From Eubacteriales bacterium (GTDB taxonomy: Bacteria > Bacillota > Clostridia > Lachnospirales > Lachnospiraceae): a DNA stretch of 34,123 bases. Below the pieces are notes generated by a model, which saw only the letters and a program-made list of their open reading frames with translations, had not been told where the DNA came from and ran no database searches. Location: the NCBI GenBank assembly GCA_030531385.1, contig JAUNNP010000017.1, forward strand, positions 1 to 34,123, in the 5' to 3' direction. Below, in pieces: positions 1,837 to 11,835 of the stretch. How positions within the stretch are numbered: position 1 is the first letter of the stretch; every line of letters starts with the position of its first letter. The position numbers and the translations under genes are program-made.

Positions 1837-3507
1837 TTAAATCATGCCGAAATGCTTCAATGCCTCCTTGATTGCTTTTTCTTTATCCGGTGGGCATTGC
1901 GGCTGTTTTGCGTCCTCAGACTTCGGCTTATTGTAGTTTTCACGCTCAATAATGCCGCATTTCTGCTTCACCTGTGCGATATACAGGCTGCTGACCTTCA
2001 ATCCGGTATGCTCCAGCACATAATCCTTGATCTCTTGATAGGTAGCTTTCTTCTCCGCATCGGTCAAGTCCAACTCGTCCATATCCAGCTCAACTTCGAT
2101 ATGCTGCGTCGATTTTAGTTTGGACAATAAACATACCGTCTCAACGTGCACCGTCTGCGGGAACATATCCACAGGTCTGACTGTTTCTATCCGGTAGCCC
2201 TCACTGCAAAGATACTTTAAATCTCTTGCAAGTGTTGCCGGGTCACAGGATACATACACTATCCTTTTGGGGGCAATGCTGACCATGGTTTTAAGACAGT
2301 TTTCATCGCAGCCCTTTCTAGGCGGATCAACGACTATGACATCGATTTTCTCTCCGGTTTTCCGGTACTCCTTTGAGTACCACTCAGGCAGAACTTCCTC
2401 CGCTTTTCCAACAAAAAATTCAGCATTATCAATGCTGTTTAATTCAGCATTCTCCCTTGCATTGTCTATCGCCTCCGGTATGATTTCCACACCGTAGACT
2501 TTTTTTGCATGTCTTGCAAGAAATAGCGAGATCGTACCGACTCCGCAGTACAGATCCCAGACACGTTCGTTTCCGGTTAGTCCCGCAAATTCAAGTGCGG
2601 TACCGTAAAGCTTTTCCATCTGCTCGGAATTTACCTGGAAAAAAGAAAGTGGGGATATGCGGAAACGGACCTGCGATCCGTCTCTGTCGTGTATAAGGTC
2701 CTCAATATAGCCGGGGCCATAGACATTGATGATCCGGGTTCCCATTATTACATTTGTGCGTTCGCGGTTTACCGATAAAGTAAATGACTTGAGCGACGGA
2801 AGCATTTCCCTAAGCCTGCCGCATAGCACATCAGCATTTTTCAGCTTTCCGGCATTAATAACAATACATACCATGAGTTCACCGGTATGCAGCCCTTTTC
2901 GTATAAGGACATGGCGTACTACACCCGAGCCCGTATTTTCATTATAAGGCTCAATATCATTATCCCCCATGAACTTAATGATGGTACTAAGTACGATCCT
3001 ATTCTCTTCAAAGCCAAGAAGACAATCCTCACATGCAATAATGCTATGTGTTCTGCCGGCATAAAAGCCTGCTATTATACGGCCCTCTTTATTACGCCCG
3101 ATAGGATAAACAGCTTTGTTCCTATACCTGAAGGGCTGTTGCATTCCGATGATTGGCTCAAAAAAGGCTCCGGCATCTGTGAAGCCACCGATACGCTTTA
3201 AATCATTTAAGACCTTGCTTTCTTTGAATTTAAGCTGGGAATCATACTCCAGCTGCTGAAGCTGACAGCCTCCGCAGCTTCTGGCAAGCGGACATGCAGG
3301 CGTGGTTCTGGATGCCGACGGCTCAATGACCTTCACCAGTCTGGCAAAGCCATAATTCTTTTTTACCTTGGTCGCTGCAGCCAGAATATGGTCGCCGATA
3401 ACCGCATCCTTGACAAACCAGGTAAAACCGTCTGTCTTTCCGATGCCGGCGCCCTCATCGCTCAGATCTGTTATATAAATTTCAAATTGATCATTTTTGT
3501 TAATCAT
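1837..3507 (-). CDS. rlmD: 23S rRNA (uracil-C5)-methyltransferase RlmD/RumA with extra C-terminal tail
   Basis: SAM-dependent enzyme making 5-methyluridine in 23S rRNA. Residues 1-60 form a TRAM RNA-binding domain. Cysteines 72, 78, 81 and one of 159/162 form the 4Fe-4S site (SCGGCQLQQLEY). The SAM motif is DLYCGVGTISLF near 318. The catalytic nucleophile is C421 in YVSCDPATLARDL, and the base is E456 in HVETV. The family normally ends at about residue 462. This protein continues for 90 residues (DNA 1837-2115) with a highly charged, probably helical tail containing LYIAQVKQKCGII and ending in HFGMI. I recall the same tail on other Lachnospiraceae RlmD proteins. The TrmA-family gene at 6420 ends without it. 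A histidine kinase gene lies 35 bases upstream in the same direction. Confidence 0.92.
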   Translation of the reverse strand: MINKNDQFEIYITDLSDEGAGIGKTDGFTWFVKDAVIGDHILAAATKVKKNYGFARLVKVIEPSASRTTPACPLARSCGGCQLQQLEYDSQLKFKESKVLNDLKRIGGFTDAGAFFEPIIGMQQPFRYRNKAVYPIGRNKEGRIIAGFYAGRTHSIIACEDCLLGFEENRIVLSTIIKFMGDNDIEPYNENTGSGVVRHVLIRKGLHTGELMVCIVINAGKLKNADVLCGRLREMLPSLKSFTLSVNRERTNVIMGTRIINVYGPGYIEDLIHDRDGSQVRFRISPLSFFQVNSEQMEKLYGTALEFAGLTGNERVWDLYCGVGTISLFLARHAKKVYGVEIIPEAIDNARENAELNSIDNAEFFVGKAEEVLPEWYSKEYRKTGEKIDVIVVDPPRKGCDENCLKTMVSIAPKRIVYVSCDPATLARDLKYLCSEGYRIETVRPVDMFPQTVHVETVCLLSKLKSTQHIEVELDMDELDLTDAEKKATYQEIKDYVLEHTGLKVSSLYIAQVKQKCGIIERENYNKPKSEDAKQPQCPPDKEKAIKEALKHFGMI

Positions 3508-6419: not shown

Positions 6420-7622
6420 ATGTCAGAGGAAAACGGACATAAAACCATAAATGGCAAAGCTGAAAAATGCCCATACAGCAAAGCCTGCGGAGGCTGTGAC
6501 CTGCAGGGAAGCAGATATAAGCGTCAGCTCAGTAAAAAGCAAAAGCTGCTTAATGAATTGCTTGGTGAATTCGGTGAGGTCCGGCCTGTTATCGGTATGT
6601 CTGATCCTTTACATTACAGGAATAAAGTGCACCATGCCTTTAAGCGTGACCGAAGCGGGAATGTGCTTTCCGGCCCCTATGAAAAAGGGTCTCATTGGGT
6701 CATAAATGTAGATGACTGTATGATAGAGGACGAAGCCTGTCAGTGCATCATTCATACCATACGAAGACTCACCAAAAGCTGCCGCATAAAGATCTACAAT
6801 GAAGATACCGATGAGGGAATACTGCGGCATGTGCTTATTCGCCGCGGTTTCTCAACAGGCGAGATAATGGTCGTCCTTGTTTCGGGAAGCAGGAAAGTGC
6901 CGGATCTCAAGCGCTTTATCAGTCAATTGGTGATGATCCATCCCGAAATAACAACTGTACTTCTCAATATAAATCACGGGAAAAGCAGCATGATACTTGG
7001 ACCTGACCGCGAAAAGCTATTATATGGGCCGGGCTATATCAAGGACATATTATGCGGCAAGACCTTCAGGATATCAGCCAAGTCTTTTTATCAGGTGAAC
7101 CCTGTCCAGACGGCAGTATTGTACAGCACTGCCATAAGCTTTGCCGGACTTACCGGAATTGAAACTGTATTCGATGCCTACTGCGGAATCGGAACGATCG
7201 GCATCTGCGCTTCAGATCATGCGGGAAATGTCATTGGCGTTGAGCTTAACCCCGACGCTGTACGTGACGCAAATATTAACGCAGAGGAGAATGGCATAAA
7301 GAATATCAAATTCTACAACGATGATGCCGGAAGATTTATGCGCCGGATGGCAAAAGAAGGACAGACAGCCGACGTTGTATTTATGGATCCTCCGAGATCC
7401 GGAAGCACGAAAGAATTTATGTCAGCTGTTATAGACATGGCTCCATCAAGGGTGGTTTATGTATCCTGCGATCCGGAGACTCTGGCCAGAGACTTAAAGT
7501 ACTTTACCGCGCATTCGTATAGGGTGAAAAAGATACAGCCTGTTGACATGTTTCCGTTTACCAGGCATGTAGAGGTGGCCGTCCAACTTCTGCGAACAAA
7601 TGATGCTGCATTTGTAAAATAA
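6420..7622 (+). CDS. TrmA/RlmD-family RNA m5U methyltransferase, TRAM-less paralogue
   Basis: A 400-residue class I methyltransferase that should make 5-methyluridine in RNA. Cysteines C17, C23, C26 (CPYSKACGGCDLQG) and C100 form the 4Fe-4S site. The SAM-binding motif is DAYCGIGTIGI near 252, the catalytic nucleophile is C350 in YVSCDPETLARDL, and the base is E384 in RHVEV. It lacks the N-terminal TRAM domain of the rlmD product at 1837-3507 and ends 16 residues after HVE, the usual family ending. The target nucleotide (U747, U1939 or another) cannot be told from sequence. It follows the pseudo-HtrA gene by 51 bases and is probably in the same transcript. Confidence 0.88.
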   Translation: MSEENGHKTINGKAEKCPYSKACGGCDLQGSRYKRQLSKKQKLLNELLGEFGEVRPVIGMSDPLHYRNKVHHAFKRDRSGNVLSGPYEKGSHWVINVDDCMIEDEACQCIIHTIRRLTKSCRIKIYNEDTDEGILRHVLIRRGFSTGEIMVVLVSGSRKVPDLKRFISQLVMIHPEITTVLLNINHGKSSMILGPDREKLLYGPGYIKDILCGKTFRISAKSFYQVNPVQTAVLYSTAISFAGLTGIETVFDAYCGIGTIGICASDHAGNVIGVELNPDAVRDANINAEENGIKNIKFYNDDAGRFMRRMAKEGQTADVVFMDPPRSGSTKEFMSAVIDMAPSRVVYVSCDPETLARDLKYFTAHSYRVKKIQPVDMFPFTRHVEVAVQLLRTNDAAFVK

Positions 7623-7658: not shown

Positions 7659-8339
7659 ATGAATAATATGGTTAGACAGATTATTCATATTGACGAAGAG
7701 AAGTGCAACGGCTGCGGAATTTGTGCCAAGGCCTGTCACGAGAGTGCAATCGCCATAATCGACGGAAAAGCAAAGCTCATCCGCGATGATTATTGTGACG
7801 GTATGGGAGACTGCCTTCCGGGGTGTCCTACCGGTGCTATTACCTTTGAAAACCGTGAAGCTCCCCAATATGACCGCGAAGCTGTTGAAGCAAATATGAA
7901 GAGGAAACGTGAGATAAACCGCAGAACTCAGGAGTCTGTTGAAGAGACAGGCAGCAATGCAGCAGTACCGGCTTCGCAGCTTACAAACTGGCCGGTTCAG
8001 ATCAAATTAGCTCCGATTCAGGCTCCATATTTTCAGGGTGCAAAACTTCTGATCGCGGCCGACTGTACTGCATATGCTTATGCAAATTTCCATAAGGACT
8101 TTATCAGGGGCAAGGTCACTCTTATCGGATGTCCAAAGCTTGACGCCATTGACTACAGTGAGAAGCTTACAGAGATTATAAAAAGCAATGATATAACAAG
8201 CGTAACGATAGTAAGAATGGAGGTTCCATGCTGCGGCGGGTTGGCTATGGCAGCTCAGAAAGCTCTTCAGAACAGCGGCAAGCTTATTCCATGGCAGATA
8301 GTTACCATATCGATAGACGGGCAGATTCTAGATCGCTGA
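7659..8339 (+). CDS. 4Fe-4S dicluster ferredoxin-like protein with cysteine-rich C-terminal domain
   Basis: A protein of about 226 residues. The N-terminal ferredoxin domain has CNGCGICAKAC (C16, C19, C22, C26) and CDGMGDCLPGCPTG (C46, C52, C56), typical of 4Fe-4S electron carriers. A charged linker (70-105) leads to a second domain with four more cysteines in DCTAYA, GCPKLD and a CCGG pair (C191-C192), which could bind another metal or cluster. From memory, this architecture is common and uncharacterised in anaerobic Clostridia. The start is uncertain: ATG at 7659 (TGGAAAGGA just upstream) or ATG at 7668, giving MVRQIIHID. An upstream in-frame TTG at 7635 lacks a site. The gene lies 36 bases after the methyltransferase. 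Confidence 0.85.
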   Translation: MNNMVRQIIHIDEEKCNGCGICAKACHESAIAIIDGKAKLIRDDYCDGMGDCLPGCPTGAITFENREAPQYDREAVEANMKRKREINRRTQESVEETGSNAAVPASQLTNWPVQIKLAPIQAPYFQGAKLLIAADCTAYAYANFHKDFIRGKVTLIGCPKLDAIDYSEKLTEIIKSNDITSVTIVRMEVPCCGGLAMAAQKALQNSGKLIPWQIVTISIDGQILDR

Positions 8340-8375
8340 TAAGAAAGCTTCGGATAAAAGAAAAGGAGGCACGGG

Positions 8376-9779
8376 ATGCTTCGAATCGACGAATATGATC
8401 ATGAACAGGACAACCTGAGGGAACTGCTGCACGATGAGCGGGTCTTTCATAAGGCGCTAGCCGGTGTGCTGCGAGGGGAGAGCAGGTTCCACGTTAAGAA
8501 CAGAGGGGGAGAGGACTACGACCTTGTCTATACCACCAACAATGATGTGGTTCCGAAATCGCCGATGACAATGGGACGACTCATCATTCCTCCGTTCCTT
8601 ACATACGATGAAAACGATGATTCCCGCATCTATATGCATGCATTTGACGACTTTGAGGAGATCTTTTTTGAGGAAGCGAATGAGTACACGATCGTTCTCG
8701 CAAAGCTGATCCTGCGGAAGACAGGCCTGACGGTCTGGTTTAAAGACGAGCGGGTTCTGTGGTTCATCGAGCCGGAGAATCGTCTGAAGATCGTATCTGA
8801 ATTTCCGGAGAAAAAGGAGACGTCTTACCTTTGCCCTGCGGACTTTACCAGCGGATATATGCGCGGGAGGAGGGATCTGGACAGTGCAGAATTTCTCTTC
8901 ACGAACGTCTTCGTGCTTCAGTATCTGACCGACCTTCCGCTGAAGGACATCAAATACGCGGAGGCCTCTGTGACGCAGATTTCCGGAGTGGGCGGGATTC
9001 TTGCGCACTATACGATGATGAATAACGCATTCCGTTCTCTCGGATTCAAGACGTATCTGAAGCCGGACAGCACCAGGTTCGGCGATGATATGCTGCAAAA
9101 ATACTTCCGGATTGAGATGATTCCGGAGGATGCAGATGAGACGAATACCATTTATGTGGTCAACCATTCAGTGGTCGCGCCGACCACTCTGATGCTCCGT
9201 CATCCGGCGGATTTTGATACGAGCGTTCTGAACCCGGATTTCCTCACGGAGATGGAGGAGTACAAGGACGCAGTGTTCAGAGGCGGGAAGATGCTCGGCA
9301 TTCTGATTCGCGGGACCGACTACATCTCGACAGGGCAGCAGGGCACCAGACAGCATGCGACGGTCGATGATATGCTGCCTCTCATCCGTGAATGGATGGA
9401 AAGAGACGGGTACGACGGAATCTTCCTCGCTACGGAGGATCAGGATATCCTTGACCGGATGAAGGCGGAATTCGGCGGCAGGATCCGGGCCATCGCACAG
9501 GAACGCCACTCCGCGCGCGACTTCAAGGAGGGGCAGACGATCGCCGAAAGAGAAAAGGAAGAGAGCAGCGGTGAAGAGTACCGCGCGAAGCTCGAGGATA
9601 CGACGGTGAACTATTTCTACGCGCTCTATCTGCTCTCGGAGTGTGAGAGCTTCATGGTCTCCGGCCAGTGCAACGGTTGGGATATCGTGCTTGCATTCAA
9701 CCACGGGAAGTTCCACAAGACATGCAAATTCCGTGTGGGCGTATCGGATCAGCCGCTGGTGACTGAGAGGGAAGAGTGA
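8376..9779 (+). CDS. Glycosyltransferase-like protein (fucosyltransferase / GT-B type), GC-rich
   Basis: A 467-residue soluble protein with no signal or membrane segment. The C-terminal half carries GILIRGTDY (308-316), IFLATEDQDIL (349-359) and SECESFMVSGQCNGWDIVLA (421-440). These resemble the donor-binding region of the fucosyltransferase superfamily (GT23, NodZ and O-FucT related), where an R-G/R-T-D motif contacts GDP-sugar. The N-terminal half is not recognised. Transfer of a sugar to a cell-surface glycan is plausible but inferred. An AAAGGAGG site precedes the ATG. Base composition differs from its neighbours: bases 9181-9240 hold 33 G/C of 60, against 19 of 60 at 8161-8220. This suggests transfer together with the convergent acyltransferase gene. 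Confidence 0.7.
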   Translation: MLRIDEYDHEQDNLRELLHDERVFHKALAGVLRGESRFHVKNRGGEDYDLVYTTNNDVVPKSPMTMGRLIIPPFLTYDENDDSRIYMHAFDDFEEIFFEEANEYTIVLAKLILRKTGLTVWFKDERVLWFIEPENRLKIVSEFPEKKETSYLCPADFTSGYMRGRRDLDSAEFLFTNVFVLQYLTDLPLKDIKYAEASVTQISGVGGILAHYTMMNNAFRSLGFKTYLKPDSTRFGDDMLQKYFRIEMIPEDADETNTIYVVNHSVVAPTTLMLRHPADFDTSVLNPDFLTEMEEYKDAVFRGGKMLGILIRGTDYISTGQQGTRQHATVDDMLPLIREWMERDGYDGIFLATEDQDILDRMKAEFGGRIRAIAQERHSARDFKEGQTIAEREKEESSGEEYRAKLEDTTVNYFYALYLLSECESFMVSGQCNGWDIVLAFNHGKFHKTCKFRVGVSDQPLVTEREE

Positions 9780-9787
9780 GCAGATCA

Positions 9788-9857
9788 ATCGAGTAGGAGG
9801 CGGCATTAGTTGCCGTCCTCTCACACCACCGTGCGTACCGTTCGGTACACGGCGGTG
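9788..9857 (-). mobile_element. Group II intron 3' remnant (domains V and VI)
   Basis: Read on the minus strand, 9857-9824 folds as a 34-base domain V: CACCGCCGTG pairs with CACGGTGGTG (with a G-U wobble), a 2-base CG bulge lies on the 3' side, and a TACC/GGTA upper stem closes a GAAC loop. The catalytic triad position reads CGC. After one base, 9822-9791 forms domain VI: GAGAGGACGGCA, an ACTAA loop, then TGCCGCCTCCTACTC with a bulged branch-point A at 9794. The expected 3' end GAT is at 9790-9788. Length, bulge and branch site all fit known bacterial group II introns. No reverse transcriptase or domains I-IV are visible, so this is a fragment. Confidence 0.8.
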
Positions 9858-11140
9858 TACTCTGCGATCACCTGTTTCAATGCCTCCACATAGCAGGGAT
9901 TCTCAAAGTTCTGATAGATGCTGAGGAATATCCGCCCCCCGCTCTCAAGCAGATACATCATAAAGGGCATGCCGCCGTTTGCAGCCATGCTGATCTTCTC
10001 AACGCAGCCGGAGGCTGCTTCCGGCACCACCTCGCCAAGGCCGCTGATGAAGATGGTCGTGTCCAGCGTGGACATGAGGTCTGCTCCTCTGTTTGCCCCG
10101 GTCTCCTTCGGCTCACCCTTTGCCAAATTGCGCCGGAAATAGTTGGTCGCAAAGGCCATGGCATCATAGGTGAGCTGCTTCTTCCGGCTCTCGCTCATTT
10201 TCCGGAGCTCCGCCTTTGCAGTCTCGCCGAACCCGTCCTTCAGGACACCGGGATCCACCGAAAACGCCGCCTGCGGCATGCTCGCGTTCTGGAAGGTGTT
10301 CGGCACATTCAGAATCTGCCTCGTGTTGACCGGCATGCGGAGCGTAATCGGCTTCTGATTGTCCGGATGCACCCGACGGATCGCTTCCGTCATGAACAGG
10401 TAGAACAAGATGGTCGTGGAGCACCCCCACTCCCTGCACAGCTTTTTGACCGAGGCTCTGTCCGCGGCGAGAGAATACCCGAACTCTCTTTTTCTCCCCA
10501 GCACAACAGACTCTAGAATGTTCACCATGAAGAATTTCCGGAGCCCCGCCTCCGGGAGCCGGAAGAAAGATCCCTGCACGGGATTCTCAAAGACATATTC
10601 CGCGCTCACGGGCAGCTTCTCACGCATAAGATCCGCTGCGTAGTCCTCGGCATCCTTCCCCTCATACAGACTTTCGTGAGCTCCGCAGTAGCTTCGGAAC
10701 AACGCATCCGCAAACCACTTAATCCCCTGTCCGTCCGTGAGTGCGTGGGACACTCCGATGACCAGCTTCCTGCCCTCAAAGAGCACATGCGTCAGGTGAT
10801 GCCCGTCCGCCTCGCAGTCGTAGGTCTGCGGCTCCTCCTTCAAAGGAATCGCCCGCAGCGGCCGCTCATTGGGGGCGAAATACAGCCCGTCCTCCCGTTT
10901 CTCCATGGAATAGCCCATGTACGGACAAACCTGCAGCGCCGCCTCTATTGCCGCGTTCAGGCGCTCTTCGTCTGCCGGCTCCGTCAGCATGAACTCAAAC
11001 CGCAGATTCATCTTCGGATCGATCCGCGCCTTCTCGCCGCCGCCCAGCATGCCTCCGTACACTGTCTTTGTCCCGAATACGGAACTTCCTCCGCTGCTCA
11101 TTTCTGCCCGCTCCTTCCTGTGGCGATTTTTACCGGACAT
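9821..11140 (-). CDS. Condensation-domain-like acyltransferase (HxxxDG), GC-rich
   Basis: A protein of about 439 residues with the acyltransferase signature GVSHALTDGQGIKWFADAL, an HxxxDG motif as in NRPS condensation domains, alcohol acetyltransferases and PapA-type enzymes. The His should be the catalytic base. The acyl donor and acceptor are unknown. An extended -10 promoter lies at 11194-11186. ATG 11140 has a GGGGGA site and ATG 11101 has a stronger AGGAAGGAG site, so either may be the start. A TTG at 11197 overlaps the promoter and is rejected. The last 11 codons and the TGA are read from the group II intron domain V, so the native C-terminus may have been replaced. It is GC-rich (35 of 60 at 10861-10920) like the convergent glycosyltransferase, unlike its flanks. 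Confidence 0.75.
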   Translation of the reverse strand: MSGKNRHRKERAEMSSGGSSVFGTKTVYGGMLGGGEKARIDPKMNLRFEFMLTEPADEERLNAAIEAALQVCPYMGYSMEKREDGLYFAPNERPLRAIPLKEEPQTYDCEADGHHLTHVLFEGRKLVIGVSHALTDGQGIKWFADALFRSYCGAHESLYEGKDAEDYAADLMREKLPVSAEYVFENPVQGSFFRLPEAGLRKFFMVNILESVVLGRKREFGYSLAADRASVKKLCREWGCSTTILFYLFMTEAIRRVHPDNQKPITLRMPVNTRQILNVPNTFQNASMPQAAFSVDPGVLKDGFGETAKAELRKMSESRKKQLTYDAMAFATNYFRRNLAKGEPKETGANRGADLMSTLDTTIFISGLGEVVPEAASGCVEKISMAANGGMPFMMYLLESGGRIFLSIYQNFENPCYVEALKQVIAEYTAVYRTVRTVV

Positions 11141-11185
11141 CTTTTTCCCCCATATAATAACTGCCGGGGTCTCATTCTCTCTAAC

Positions 11186-11194
11186 AGTATACCA
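11186..11194 (-). promoter_or_regulatory. Extended -10 promoter for the acyltransferase gene
   Basis: The minus strand reads TGGTATACT, an extended -10 element, without a recognisable -35. Transcription would start near 11179, about 40 bases before the ATG at 11140, which excludes the upstream TTG start at 11197. Confidence 0.45.
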
Positions 11195-11358
11195 CAATAG
11201 TGCCTCAATATCGCATCACGTATTATACACGGTTACTGTTCCGAGTTCCCGAGGACAATTCATAACTCGCTCCTAATGAAAATAAATAAAATCCTCTGTA
11301 AAATGCTTACAAATTCTGTTAAACTGTAAGACAGATATTTTCTGACTTTGGAGTTTAT

Positions 11359-11835
11359 ATGAATAAGCTGACTTTATCCGCTGTTGTACAAAATTCAAAT
11401 ACCGCCCTCGACTTTATTCATGACGAACTGGAGCAATATAAGTGTTCGCCAAGGACTCTTTATATGCTGGATCTTGCCATTGAAGAATTATTTGTAAATA
11501 TTGCTAATTACGGTTATCCTGACGGTAATATCGGCAGCGTGACGATCACTTCGGAAATCCGGAAAACAGCCTCTCTTCTGCCTGAATTTATTAATGCCTC
11601 AGGGACTCCGGAAGCTGCCGATCCTGAAGATAGTTATACTATCCGTATACAGTTTATTGATGATGCCATTCCGTATAATCCGCTTGCTCATGAAGATCCT
11701 GATATTTCCCTATCTGCAGAAGAACGTAATATAGGCGGTCTTGGCATTTTTCTCGTAAAAAAATATATGGACAAGGTAGAATACAAGTACCTGGACAATC
11801 GCAATGTCTTCACCATATATAAGATCATAAAATAA
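11359..11835 (+). CDS. RsbW-like anti-sigma-factor-type ATP-binding protein
   Basis: A 158-residue GHKL ATPase fold of the RsbW/SpoIIAB type. The N box is EELFVNIANYGYP (42-54), the G1 motif is FIDDAIPYNPLA (99-110) and the G2 motif is GGLGIFLVKKYMDKVEY (126-142). A charged loop at about 68-92 is longer than in classical RsbW. Such proteins bind ATP and either sequester a sigma factor or phosphorylate a STAS-domain antagonist. Neither a sigma factor nor a STAS protein is encoded nearby, so its partner is unknown. A TTTGGAG site precedes the ATG. A strong shared terminator follows. Confidence 0.88.
   Translation: MNKLTLSAVVQNSNTALDFIHDELEQYKCSPRTLYMLDLAIEELFVNIANYGYPDGNIGSVTITSEIRKTASLLPEFINASGTPEAADPEDSYTIRIQFIDDAIPYNPLAHEDPDISLSAEERNIGGLGIFLVKKYMDKVEYKYLDNRNVFTIYKIIK

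Follow-up and report, generated by a model that had tools for sequence, protein, structure and literature searches.

Positions 9788-9857 on the minus strand of the window, the whole 34,123-nucleotide stretch of DNA analysed here, carry group IIC intron sequence, domains V and VI, into which the reading frame of an acyltransferase-like gene runs without a gap; the join was probably made by a deletion in an intron that likely lay behind the terminator of this gene. The features concerned are listed below.

9788..9857, minus strand: intron 3' end (group II domains V and VI), filed as group IIC; RF00029 match, identity of up to 94% with intact introns at their 3' ends
9824..9857, minus strand: domain V, a 34-base hairpin with the CGC triad at 9852-9854 and a two-base CG bulge at 9834-9835; sequence, fold and pairing
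9788..9823, minus strand: linker and domain VI with the bulged A at 9794 and the 3' end GAT at 9788-9790; covariance match, fold and pairing
9821..11197, minus strand: acyltransferase-like ORF, 458 aa from TTG or 426 aa from the ATG at 11101 (P0001); ORF and BAHD/condensation fold match
9821..9856, minus strand: last 11 codons TAVYRTVRTVV (9824-9856) and TGA stop (9821-9823) of the acyltransferase-like gene; intron sequence
8376..9779, plus strand: convergent neighbour gene, family unconfirmed (a glycosyltransferase in the sequence-only reading); ORF with relatives in other genomes

Identification of the intron 3' end

The sequence-only reading had proposed group II intron domains V-VI at 9788-9857 and a covariance search on the minus strand around 9700-9900 as the check. 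An Infernal search of 501 bases bears the proposal out: RF00029 matches 9788-9857 on the minus strand and ends at 9788, with 43.5 bits against a gathering score of 40 (E 2.4e-7), spanning model positions 1-77 of 77. A search of the whole genome, a draft of 2.48 Mb in 208 contigs that is 94% complete, led to the same site (E 2.8e-7) and gave no other match at E ≤ 10. The Rfam fast-filter scan over the whole window missed it.

The triad, the two-base bulge and the bulged branch-point A, the motifs of group II domains V-VI, are all present at 9852-9854, 9834-9835 and 9794 in agreement with the pairing, the bulged A being the seventh base counted from the intron 3' end. Together with the 34-base domain V and the GAT end, each of the features named beforehand could be read in its place. 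The strand at 9780-9870 folds with -45 kcal/mol, compared with a mean of -26.2 (sd 3.2) for its shuffles (z = -5.91), and none of 200 shuffles was as stable. In 14 aligned copies of domains V-VI (12 distinct) 99.0% of the pair cells are standard and 5 of the 24 pairs have changed on both sides, so that the element carries the pattern of a conserved RNA. Two distal domain VI pairs, 48-58 and 49-57 in the columns of this register, fail in a single row apiece, and the alignment shows this row to be that of the window.

Group II domains V-VI alone cannot splice. Domains I-IV and a reverse transcriptase are absent at the remnant, so it does not count as a functional intron. The search for domains I-IV suggested in advance was run by nucleotide comparison and revealed none, neither in the window (all other matches at E 0.16 or worse) nor in the whole genome (next best match at E 2.2). 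The description of a remnant devoid of a reverse transcriptase therefore holds, with nothing further of the intron found in window or genome. The only RVT_1 match in this genome is a 357-aa reverse transcriptase on another locus (L100, G000:C179, 4878-5951), which reaches 111.6 bits on the group II reverse transcriptase/maturase model with its cut-off of 300.

The element had been placed between genes. The 3' ends of two convergent genes do meet here, but 9821-9857 overlaps the end of the ORF at 9821-11197, and the element is not purely intergenic.

The gene end spelled by domain V

The acyltransferase-like protein has no Pfam or NCBIfam match. It is predicted to fold (mean pLDDT 83.3) like the BAHD/condensation acyltransferases, PapA5 of M. 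tuberculosis being the best Foldseek match (E 1.4e-15, TM 0.58), and HALTDG at residues 119-124 of P0001 fits HxxxDG, the motif of the BAHD/condensation acyltransferase superfamily. By the modelled fold and this motif the product of the fused gene appears to belong to that superfamily.

The reading frame runs intact through the join as ...ALKQVIAEY, then TAVYRTVRTVV, then TGA; this stop codon consists of the opening three bases of the V/VI linker. Seven other relatives were retrieved at E ≤ 1e-10 among about 5.8 billion proteins. The closest homologues, P0002 (50% identical) and P0003 (48%), end in ...ALKQIFKEYGLLL and ...ALKAVLADNGIAVQ; they keep the last helix and terminate 4 and 5 residues past the join point with other letters, and the remaining five end 2 to 15 residues past the same point, none of them like TAVYRTVRTVV. 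As homologues end soon past the join point with other letters, the acyltransferase-like gene is preserved as far as its last helix (modelled at residues 403-415) and domain V supplies the rest. Confidence in the modelled tail is low (pLDDT 56 for the last block). Conservation of the segment as protein had been named in advance as the finding that would speak against an intron; with other, unrelated ends in 7/7 homologues, domain V as a conserved protein segment was rejected and the intron reading survives.

Among 145 relatives the gene is present in its own genome only, where a second match, 23% identical, lies on contig C117, and no match to the acyltransferase was found on plasmids or viral contigs. 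The genome contigs searched hold 10 acyltransferase-related loci at 28-33% identity, with no group II domains at E ≤ 0.1 beside them. The join is known from one metagenome-type assembly only (P0001: 1 member, 1 contig).

Predicted present role

The only present roles predicted for the remnant are those of a coding tail, a stop codon and, where the mRNA has its 3' end, a stable hairpin. An ordinary intrinsic terminator was rejected: a consensus scan of 9400-11500 gave two sites, neither of them near 9780-9870. The very stable fold of domains V-VI, the lack of such a terminator and the intact frame would also suit an exaptation, in which selection maintains either the hairpin, serving as transcription end or mRNA cap, or the tail of 11 residues. 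We regard this as unlikely, since with one sequence only selection is not measurable, no T-tract follows the domain V-VI hairpin and the tail is the part modelled with low confidence.

Intact relatives and assignment to group IIC

RF00029 was detected at E ≤ 0.001 in 52 of the 145 relatives, and the 70-mer itself was matched at E ≤ 1e-5 in 149 of 397 genomes of the family (own included), the best other match being 94% identical. All intact copies that were built (10/10) measure 1,899-1,917 nt, start with GTGCGCC and end with GAT. One of the intact copies encodes a 466-aa protein which scores 409 bits on TIGR04416 (group II reverse transcriptase/maturase, cut-off 300), and in close copies the TGA stop of the intron protein directly abuts domain V. 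The remnant is recognisably homologous to the intact introns from the second base of domain V (9856) onwards; the 33 bases at 9824-9856 are unchanged in 12/12 close copies displayed.

A hairpin, in most cases followed by a T-rich tail, immediately precedes the full-length copies. With a threshold of -9.5 kcal/mol, which was picked after the data had been seen, the last 45 nt upstream of the intron are at least this stable in 39/40 full-length copies (median -21 kcal/mol), compared with 229/800 composition shuffles and 30/130 other 45-mers further upstream. The text available from PMC4424553 and PMC8919778 describes insertion after intrinsic terminators for IIC or class C introns. Since the full-length relatives sit behind hairpins, as is the published habit of IIC introns, the remnant may be filed as group IIC, by the position of its relatives behind terminator-like sequences. 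The window copy itself is a IIC remnant and not an intron at its target; it does not lie behind a terminator, coding sequence adjoins domain V, and the preceding 45 nt fold with -7.9 kcal/mol.

Other forms of the intron were seen alongside. One 6.9-Mb genome (G070:C1) contains 18 near-identical domain V-VI matches, and the five that were read are full-length introns. Two mini-introns, L132 (G274) and L184 (G375), keep the 5' end and the hairpin, with 88 and 178 nt, respectively, between the 5' end and domain V; such copies may be non-autonomous and depend for movement on the protein of another copy.

Survey of full-length and shortened copies

From 133 sequences we dropped 9 without a domain V match, 46 with less than 1,900 nt upstream and 1 with an N, and the 77 classed copies comprised 40 full-length, 12 internally deleted (5' end kept) and 25 truncated ones (5' end lost). 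The copies were drawn from hit lists and are not a random sample, 18 of the 45 matches of one list lying in a single genome (G070), with 5 of these 18 read. Six of the 25 truncated copies were set aside, namely L037 and the divergent L247, L252, L253, L258 and L259, leaving a curated set of 19 including the window. L037 is probably full-length, because its match to the intron protein is nearly complete (residues 40-464 of 466). Within the curated set L125 and L128 share one junction, and among the 12 internally deleted copies L194 and L260 are doubtful.

The same measure of -9.5 kcal/mol or better over the last 45 nt, satisfied by nearly all full-length copies, holds for 10/12 internally deleted copies and for 1/25 truncated copies, this one being L037. 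None of the curated truncated copies (0/19) has such a hairpin, their values ranging from -0.8 to -9.4 kcal/mol; the controls for the truncated copies gave 48/380 for composition shuffles and 151/667 for other upstream 45-mers.

Breaks within 110 nt of domain V were found in 10/19 curated truncated copies. A random-deletion model does not predict such an excess, which may come from assembly bias; a uniform-break binomial gives 1.6e-8 for 10/18 near-domain-V breaks, and because assembly favours short remnants the excess is not claimed. Genomes of about 10 contigs or fewer contribute 3 curated truncated copies (L137, L181 and L244), of which 1 breaks within 110 nt.

A further locus, L135 (G456:C79), contains a 99-residue hisZ-like stretch that passes without a change of frame into the final codons for the protein of a truncated intron, 23 nt before domain V. 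It is a possible second case of a host frame running into the intron; the hisZ-like match is weak, with 25.3 bits on PF13393 (cut-off 25) and 23.2 bits on TIGR00443, far below its cut-off.

Origin of the join

The element is a group II domain V-VI unit, no further piece of the intron was found, the join is in frame and no hairpin directly precedes it. In the sequence of events that we favour, an entire intron, oriented like the acyltransferase gene, would once have followed it, in the way that intact copies follow terminator-like hairpins. A single deletion would then have taken the last few codons of the gene, its stop codon and terminator together with domains I-IV and the reverse transcriptase gene of the intron. 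Folding revealed no clear terminator within 70 nt after the stop in 7 of 10 distant relatives, so the terminator behind the gene of the window is an assumption; likewise, no allele of the locus that predates the deletion was found and the order of events is inferred.

Alternatively, the remnant may be an aborted insertion, in which reverse transcription ended once domains VI and V had been copied, and the resulting short cDNA became attached to the gene upstream. The exact 3' end (GAT) fits such an event, as do the 10/19 curated truncated copies that break near domain V, where short cDNAs would break. An insertion aborted at the usual target should, however, leave the adjoining hairpin, which 0/19 truncated copies have, and the own end of the acyltransferase gene is gone as well. 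As the truncated copies lack the hairpin, deletions that reach from inside the intron out past the hairpin are favoured, and an aborted insertion seems a rather poor candidate.

Another explanation would be an assembly artefact, in which the contig wrongly joins the acyltransferase gene to a repeated intron end. The genome is a draft of 208 contigs and intron ends often lie at contig ends, mostly accounting for the 46/133 sequences with less than 1,900 nt upstream. On the other hand, no sequence is shared across the join between gene and domain V, the assembly holds a single RF00029 copy and the high GC content continues across the join, all of which renders an artefact very improbable. A circularly permuted group II ribozyme, in which domains I-IV come downstream of domains V-VI, would account for the lack of domains I-IV upstream, and permuted forms exist according to the text available from PMC8637638; we consider it next to negligible, as there is no room downstream (below 9788), where the ORF matches a relative over residues 3-462 of 467, nucleotide search gave no intron 5' sequence (a divergent domain I would escape that search) and the closest relatives are canonical introns.

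Comparison with known systems

Group IIC introns inserted after intrinsic terminators (PMC4424553, PMC8919778) are the closest known system, and the remnant shares with them the domain V-VI sequence, the CGC triad and the GAT 3' end; in contrast to them, the window keeps only the last 70 bases, without the hairpin, domains I-IV and the protein. Most bacterial group II copies are truncated or inactivated, as stated in the available part of PMC4424553. Truncated introns being common, the remnant itself is ordinary. The fragments treated in the accessible portions of PMC3522654 and PMC4496777 are likewise non-mobile leftovers of decayed copies. They differ in that they measure at least 100 bp, the minimum with which fragments were counted in Enterobacteriales (PMC3522654), or have lost the 3' end (PMC4496777), the reverse of the case of the window, where the 3' end is kept as the coding end of a gene.

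In deletion-born gene fusions (PMC12803068, a preprint, as far as its accessible text goes) a deletion joins the start of a frame to other sequence and so creates a new end, as in the window, whose new end is ribozyme sequence and not the end of another gene. Permuted group II ribozymes (PMC8637638, accessible text) share the domains V-VI without domains I-IV upstream, but the window also lacks domains I-IV downstream, where another ORF is located. The capture of domain V as a coding tail with a stop codon is the unusual part, and it rests on one assembly; in the literature searched, which covers subscription journals hardly and other sources in part, we found no report of a bacterial gene that ends inside domain V.

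Class C introns are said to affect host genes little, as they land after terminators (available text of PMC8919778). Were their decay to extend often into the gene upstream, they would reshape gene ends. A remnant of 70 bases escapes the survey rules as given in the accessible text, that is, the 100-bp minimum (PMC3522654) or the demand for a reverse transcriptase or domains I-IV within 1,300 bases (PMC8919778). On a wider and speculative view, IIC introns that sit after genes and collapse by deletion might recurrently provide host genes with new C-terminal tails and stops, ribozyme sequence being exapted as protein: here domain V would be translated, its hairpin capping the mRNA for a working enzyme, and a second genome would offer the hisZ-like piece that ends in the last codons of the intron protein. 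We offer this only as a tentative proposal that is more likely wrong than right. The locus lends itself to a clean test of a catalytic RNA hairpin in the double role of coding sequence and mRNA end.

Neighbourhood of the remnant

Eight bases separate the intron end at 9788 from the stop codon of the convergent neighbour gene (9777-9779). Relatives of this gene occur in 5/144 other genomes, the best with 43% identity over residues 3-462 of 467, and the label glycosyltransferase could not be confirmed, there being no Pfam or NCBIfam match.

The suggestion that the intron may mark how an island arrived finds no support: the remnant is situated where two convergent genes have their 3' ends, and since the order of the neighbourhood differs within the same genus, an empty site could not be compared. 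As an arrival mark the intron was accordingly rejected. At 17/20 same-genus loci around DUF5711 a histidine kinase gene adjoins, with DegP beyond it, and in the window these two genes are inverted with respect to DUF5711 and separated from it by additional genes. The 10/10 loci around the ferredoxin-like gene contain none of the other 11 window proteins. Two TrmA-like genes are present in the window, at 1837-3507 and 6420-7622, within the segment 1837-13147 whose order is unlike that of the genus. The GC content amounts to 0.50-0.60 at 8200-11200, which includes both convergent genes, compared with 0.38-0.48 outside; this fits a foreign origin, one that does not involve the intron.
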